Origin: Bacillota bacterium
Lineage (GTDB): Bacteria > Bacillota > Sulfobacillia > JAJZYS01 > JAJZLH01
NCBI GenBank assembly: GCA_021850485.1
Contig: JAJZLY010000014.1
Span: 1 to 64,000, forward strand
Reading direction: 5' to 3'
Length of the DNA: 64,000 bases
In this document: in pieces, positions 13,908 through 62,848 of the stretch
How the letters are laid out: each line of letters begins with the position of its first letter
Numbering within the stretch: the first letter of the stretch is position 1
Made by a program: the position numbers and the translations under genes
The notes under the pieces: model-generated
What the model was told of the DNA's origin: nothing
What the model saw: only the letters and a program-made list of their open reading frames with translations
The model's database searches: none

Positions 13908-13965
13908 ACGAGGGCAAGGTGAACCTTCCCTCGGCAGACCTTCTTCACCGGAAGTCGCCGACAAG

Positions 13966-14134
13966 AACAGGCAGGTCTCCTGGCTCGCCGATCCGGTGCG
14001 CCCCTTCCCGCCCCGAGGGGCAGTGGTCTGGCGACCTTCATCTCCGGCATACAGTGGCGGGACCGCTCAGGCATCGCACCTGATTCCCTCTTCGCTCCCA
14101 GACGGGAGCACCTGTTCCGCTATACGGTTTGACG
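13966..14134 (-). promoter_or_regulatory. Cobalamin riboswitch (AdoCbl type)
   Basis: The complement carries the conserved riboswitch blocks in order: GGAACAGGTGCTCCC and GCGAAGAGGGAATCAGGTGC, then GGTCCCGCCACTGTATGCC, a GCCACTG-like core with a GC-rich peripheral stem, and finally the B12 box AGCCAGGAGACCTGCC at 13970-13985. It lies in the leader of the BtuFCD-type operon and should lower its expression when adenosylcobalamin is abundant. Ends are approximate. Confidence 0.93.
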
Positions 14135-40751: not shown

Positions 40752-40841
40752 GCCCACCCCTCCTCGCCGTTGCGCCGACAGGTTTTCGCTTCAGCCAAGG
40801 CGAACGCCTTCGCACTTCGCCCAGGCGCCTGAGGAGGCATC

Positions 40842-41453
40842 ATCACGCCAGGCACCCTGATCGCCGTCGAGGGCATTGATGGCAGCGGAATCAGCACCCA
40901 GTCCCAATCCCTGGTCCAGTGGCTGCAAGGCACGGGGCGTCCCGCCCTTGGCACCAAGGAGCCCAGCGATGGTCCCGTCGGTCAACTGATTCGCCGTGCC
41001 CTGCAGGCCCAGGGAGAGGCGGCCCAGGTCAGCGAGCCGGTCCTGGCCGCCTTGTTCGCCGCCGACCGCATCGACCACTTGCAGCGGGTGATCGAGCCGG
41101 CCCTGACCAGTGGCCAGATCGTGGTCTGTGACCGCTATCTTCTCTCTTCGTTTGCCTACCAGTCCCTGGCCGTGGACATGGATTGGCTACGCCAACTCAA
41201 CCGCCAGGCCCGGCGCCCGGACCTCACGCTGTGGCTCACCGTCTCCCCGGCCACCAGCCGCCGCCGCCGCTGGCAGCGGCCGGCTGACGAACGCTATGAG
41301 GCGGACGACCACCTGGCCAGGGTCGCAGCTCAGATGGGTGACGTCTCAAGGCAGCTGAGGTCCGAGCTCCAGATCGTGGCCGTGGACGGTGAAGGCAGTG
41401 CCCAGGAGGTACTCACCCGCCTGCAAGCGGCGGTGATGGAAAGGCTGCGCTGA
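40842..41453 (+). CDS. tmk: Thymidylate kinase, no canonical start codon, altered P-loop
   Basis: Phosphorylates dTMP to dTDP. About 203 residues, usual length. LIAVEGIDGSGISTQ is the P-loop; the Walker Lys (GSGKST) is replaced by Ile (codon ATC). The DR(Y/H) motif is VVCDRYLLSSFAYQ, with TKEPSDGPVGQLIRR before it and a lid RRRRWQRPADERYE. The in-frame stop TGA at 40830-40832 lies next to AGGAGG (40832-40837), and from there to the P-loop there is no ATG, GTG or TTG: the codons are GGA GGC ATC ATC ACG CCA. ATC 40842 (4 nt after AGGAGG) is listed; ATC 40839 or ACG 40845 are alternatives. The 3' end overlaps the opposing methyltransferase gene by 41 nt. Confidence 0.88.
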   Translation: MTPGTLIAVEGIDGSGISTQSQSLVQWLQGTGRPALGTKEPSDGPVGQLIRRALQAQGEAAQVSEPVLAALFAADRIDHLQRVIEPALTSGQIVVCDRYLLSSFAYQSLAVDMDWLRQLNRQARRPDLTLWLTVSPATSRRRRWQRPADERYEADDHLARVAAQMGDVSRQLRSELQIVAVDGEGSAQEVLTRLQAAVMERLR

Positions 41454-62661: not shown

Positions 62662-62727
62662 CTTCCGCAACCCGCATTCGAGACAAGGCGCGACGCTACA
62701 AGGCAAGTCACTATCGAGACCTCCTTG

Positions 62728-62840
62728 GGCTTACGAGGTGAGCTGACGGGCTCGGTTGGAGGTACACCCGGCCACCTGCGGTGGCTTCGCCCCGATTCAT
62801 GGTTCCCCCGTCCGCCAGATGGCGGCTCAGCCCTAACAAA
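62728..62840 (-). promoter_or_regulatory. c-di-AMP riboswitch (ydaO/yuaA type)
   Basis: The complement has the conserved ydaO blocks: outer stem TTAGGGCT ... AGCCCAA, then GCCGCCATCTGGCGGACGGG, GGGAACCATGAATCGGGGCG, and the hallmark CAACCGAGCCCGTCAGCTCA followed by CCTCGTAAGC. It lies in the leader of kdpA. In known cases c-di-AMP binding switches off potassium uptake genes. Ends are approximate. Confidence 0.93.
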
Positions 62841-62848
62841 CATCGGTC

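Follow-up and report, generated by a model that had tools for sequence, protein, structure and literature searches.

To our knowledge, proven non-canonical starts in bacteria are few, and they are overlooked by gene finders. A 2017 study by Hecht et al. reportedly dealt with all 64 codons. A literature search of limited coverage returned no natural bacterial ACG start. The non-canonical starts of infC are well known, being ATT in E. coli and ATC in Streptomyces, and the repression of non-canonical starts by IF3 is documented (PMC5472188). A further case is sigR of Streptomyces, whose GTC start lowers expression through IF3 (PMC5472188).

The locus described here is a gene (tmk) for dTMP kinase, an enzyme required in DNA precursor synthesis, and its start is probably an ACG codon. 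The locus lies in a 64,000-nucleotide stretch of DNA (the window) from the genome G000, which belongs to a small uncultured Bacillota genus and was compared with two genomes of the same genus, G001 and G002. The features of the region, in window coordinates, are as follows.

40830..40832 (+): in-frame TGA ending the upstream frame, read from the sequence; CGA in G002
40832..40837 (+): AGGAGG, Shine-Dalgarno-like, its first base being the last of the TGA; read from the sequence and found likewise in the G001 and G002 copies
40845..40847 (+): ACG, proposed start codon, kept behind AGGAGG in G000, G001, and G002
40845..41453 (+): tmk, 202 amino acids as read from the ACG, with TIGR00041 and PF02223 matches
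40857..40859 (+): CTG, the competing start candidate, kept in the genus at 19, 22, and 19 nt behind AGGAGG in G000, G001, and G002, respectively
40872..40898 (+): P-loop region GIDGSGIST, in which Ile replaces the Lys, from the sequence and a census of relatives

Two other kinds of element were seen in the window. An inverted repeat, AAGGCG-AA-CGCCTT (40797-40810), was noticed by eye just 5′ of tmk and is partly kept in G002 and G001. The window also carries c-di-AMP and cobalamin riboswitches (62714-62842 and 13953-14130 (-), respectively).

The tmk frame (40833-41453, +) opens after the TGA, continues with GGA GGC ATC ATC ACG CCA GGC ACC CTG ATC, and ends with a stop codon at 41451-41453. 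A sequence-only reading of the window had stated that no ATG, GTG, or TTG precedes the P-loop and that AGGAGG stands before the ATC pair; both statements hold, the first canonical codon after the TGA being TTG 41052, which is codon 70 numbered from the ACG and lies beyond the P-loop. The genome is GC-rich, and frames of at least 180 codons with no canonical start near their opening are frequent (434/1658) in a sample of 60 stretches plus the window, with loci kept apart, that covers 1,010,803 of the 1,612,407 bases of the genome (63%), and surely most of these 434 are non-coding. The missing start counts at this locus only because homology shows where Tmk begins.

In a profile search, the region 40842-41450 scored 146.4 bits against the dTMP kinase model TIGR00041 (curated cut-off 83.25) and the gene scored 137 bits against PF02223 (Thymidylate_kin). 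The protein resembles the described family in matching over nearly its whole length above the cut-off and in having the DRY motif, but differs from it in the P-loop, GIDGSGISTQ, where Ile stands in place of the usual Lys. The residue is Leu in G001, and Ile, Leu, Val, or Thr at this Walker A position is common in the large branch of Tmk proteins to which this one belongs. Among 104 matched frames from relatives, 45 have no Lys, a count in which two genomes enter twice and one match (L026) looks spurious, so in practice the Lys does not define the dTMP kinase family. A tmk of the Ile/Leu type is the only match in G016, G015, G042, and G033, and in G039 it is accompanied by one weak partial match below the cut-off. 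These comparisons suggest that a Tmk with no P-loop Lys works.

Two further Thymidylate_kin matches of G000 lie in tandem on C5 (L002 and L003), with the P-loops GSGKSTQ and GAGCTDQ; similar pairs are present elsewhere in the order, and many of its genomes have extra copies. L002 and L003 score only 52.2 and 54.8 bits against the dTMP kinase cut-off of 83.25 and were rejected as a second full tmk. The genome-wide profile search thus answers the check proposed in the sequence-only reading: no other complete tmk was found, which leaves the window gene as the only equivalog-level copy in G000 and, by inference, probably essential.

The Tmk proteins of G002 and G001 are 78% and 66% identical to that of the window, and in both genomes the homologous N-terminus likewise has no canonical start. 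The sequence reads AGGAGG-CATTGCC-ACG-CCA in G002 and AGGAGG-CAGCACCGCC-ACG-TCC in G001. The ACG is identical in G000, G002, and G001, at 7, 7, and 10 nt from AGGAGG, respectively, and a CTG follows four codons later in all three. The ATC-ATC pair of G000 is not kept, being ATT-GCC in G002 and ACC-GCC in G001, so that the codon preceding the ACG is ATC, GCC, and GCC in G000, G002, and G001. Since two relatives share the peculiarity, a sequencing error in a single assembly, such as the indel that the first reading had named as its refutation, is unlikely. That tmk is decaying or mis-assembled is the least probable of the explanations weighed here. The related genomes are MAGs, the window genome is in 33 contigs, and the P-loop Lys is replaced; against this, the frame is full-length with third-position bias, the same features recur in two other genomes, and Ile, Leu, Val, or Thr takes the place of the Lys in many relatives.

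An ungapped comparison in the ACG frame indicates where coding begins. Relative to G002, differences at the first, second, and third codon positions number 6, 7, and 5 in the 26 codons upstream of the ACG, and 11, 11, and 26 in the 60 codons downstream; relative to G001, the corresponding counts are 22, 19, and 17 upstream and 11, 15, and 32 downstream. The aligned region upstream also contains gaps not divisible by three, which break the frame. The sequence upstream of the ACG has no coding signature, and the confinement of third-position bias to the downstream part, together with the frame-breaking gaps, supports a start near the ACG.

These data also bear on a longer protein that would begin farther upstream, at TTG 40770 on the far side of the TGA in G000, at an ATG or GTG in G002, and at a TTG in G001, with the TGA read through or decoded as selenocysteine. 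In its favor, the upstream frame is open in G001 and G002, the genome has a tRNA-Sec gene (L035:2077-2172, -), and the DNA upstream of tmk is 77% identical to that of G002. It is nevertheless very unlikely, given the upstream gaps and lack of third-position bias, the overlap of the TGA with AGGAGG, and the presence of a start codon near the P-loop in most relatives outside the genus. The earlier contention that no alternative remains except ATC, ACG, or CTG was too strong insofar as it passed over such readthrough, improbable as it is.

The codon-position pattern alone does not tell the ACG from the CTG; the two are separated in part by their distance from the Shine-Dalgarno sequence and by how the proteins of relatives begin. 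Initiation at CTG 40857, giving a shorter N-terminus (MIAVEG), is the main rival and is unlikely. This codon is conserved as well as the ACG, in all three genomes, which has to be counted against the latter, and infC of the genus very likely also starts at CTG. However, AGGAGG is 19-22 nt away, beyond the usual Shine-Dalgarno spacing, with only AGG or GGA nearer, and a CTG start would remove residues ahead of the first strand that are present in most relatives. A start at the ACG would give MPGTLIAVEG, in good agreement with ATG-started relatives such as MPKGKFIALEG (L008), MPAGRFIVFEG (L009), and MSRGLFIVLEG (L011). Initiation at ATC 40839 or 40842 (ATT in G002) is distinctly improbable: infC is known to start at ATT or ATC (PMC5472188), and ATC 40842 sits 4 nt behind AGGAGG, but its position is GCC in both relatives, while ATC 40839 stands 1 nt from AGGAGG and corresponds to neither ATT nor ATC in G001. 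Initiation at ACG 40845 is therefore retained as the best reading and a reasonably probable one. The proposal of non-canonical initiation in the sequence-only reading thus survives in its general form, with ATC not conserved and ACG favored over CTG.

In the initiation machinery, the initiator tRNA has a normal anticodon loop, GGGCTCATAACCC, with one match in a genome-wide pattern search. An altered initiator tRNA was rejected, as only the CAT anticodon loop was found with the pattern GGGCTNRTAACCC, and a missing IF3 was rejected because the genome search located it. The infC gene of G000 reads GGA GGG GAG AGC CTG AGC ACC AAA, nearly identically in both relatives; in the three genomes (L094, L176, and L177) the conserved CTG lies 5 nt behind the GGAGGGG run and directly before STKEWRINDEIR. 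This CTG is very likely the start of IF3 in the genus.

A wider pattern, at which the first reading had hinted, is not supported by the 63% sample. Among codons counted 5-9 nt behind GGAGG, ATG was enriched 3.6-fold and GTG 1.36-fold. ACG was not clearly enriched (36 observed vs 29.9 expected), as would be expected if ACG starts are rare, and ATC (64 vs 68.8) and CTG (109 vs 108.2) were close to expectation. The method is weak, with even TTG reaching only 55 against 47.2. Since none of ACG, ATC, ATT, ATA, and CTG was enriched behind GGAGG in this sample, genome-wide recoding or odd initiation was rejected at this sensitivity. The counts reveal no general rule of odd starts, but a few real cases would escape such a survey. 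The list of frames with no canonical start, drawn from the same sample, consisted mostly of non-coding frames and yielded nothing. The conclusion on the ACG of tmk is independent of this sample.

Under initiation at ACG 40845, the ordinary initiator tRNA (CAU) would read this codon, which is one transition away from ATG, with the AGGAGG 7 nt before it as a guide, and the product would begin with fMet-PGTLIAVEG; the expected N-terminal peptide is PGTLIAVEGIDGSGISTQ, with or without fMet. Such a weak start may hold Tmk at a low level; other non-canonical starts suggest by analogy that it may also be IF3-sensitive. A weak start is odd on a probably essential gene. It is a long shot that the only full dTMP kinase is held back genus-wide by its ACG, so that the supply of DNA precursors is limited and made dependent on IF3, which itself very probably starts at a conserved CTG; start-codon fidelity and dTTP synthesis would then be coupled. 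As a comparative case, a conserved ACG on a metabolic gene that is probably essential would indicate that starts of this sort can persist outside infC, and the locus carries a warning, as automatic annotation would misplace the tmk start or lose the P-loop.

Compared with the described systems, tmk shares with infC (ATT or ATC; PMC5472188) a non-canonical start on a probably essential gene, but the codon is another one and tmk has no known autoregulation. With sigR of Streptomyces (GTC; PMC5472188) it shares the rarity of its start, whereas sigR encodes a regulatory sigma factor rather than a nucleotide kinase, and its start was proven by experiment, that of tmk being proposed from sequence comparison. 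The putative tmk start falls into a class already described, in which its gene and its codon are both unusual.
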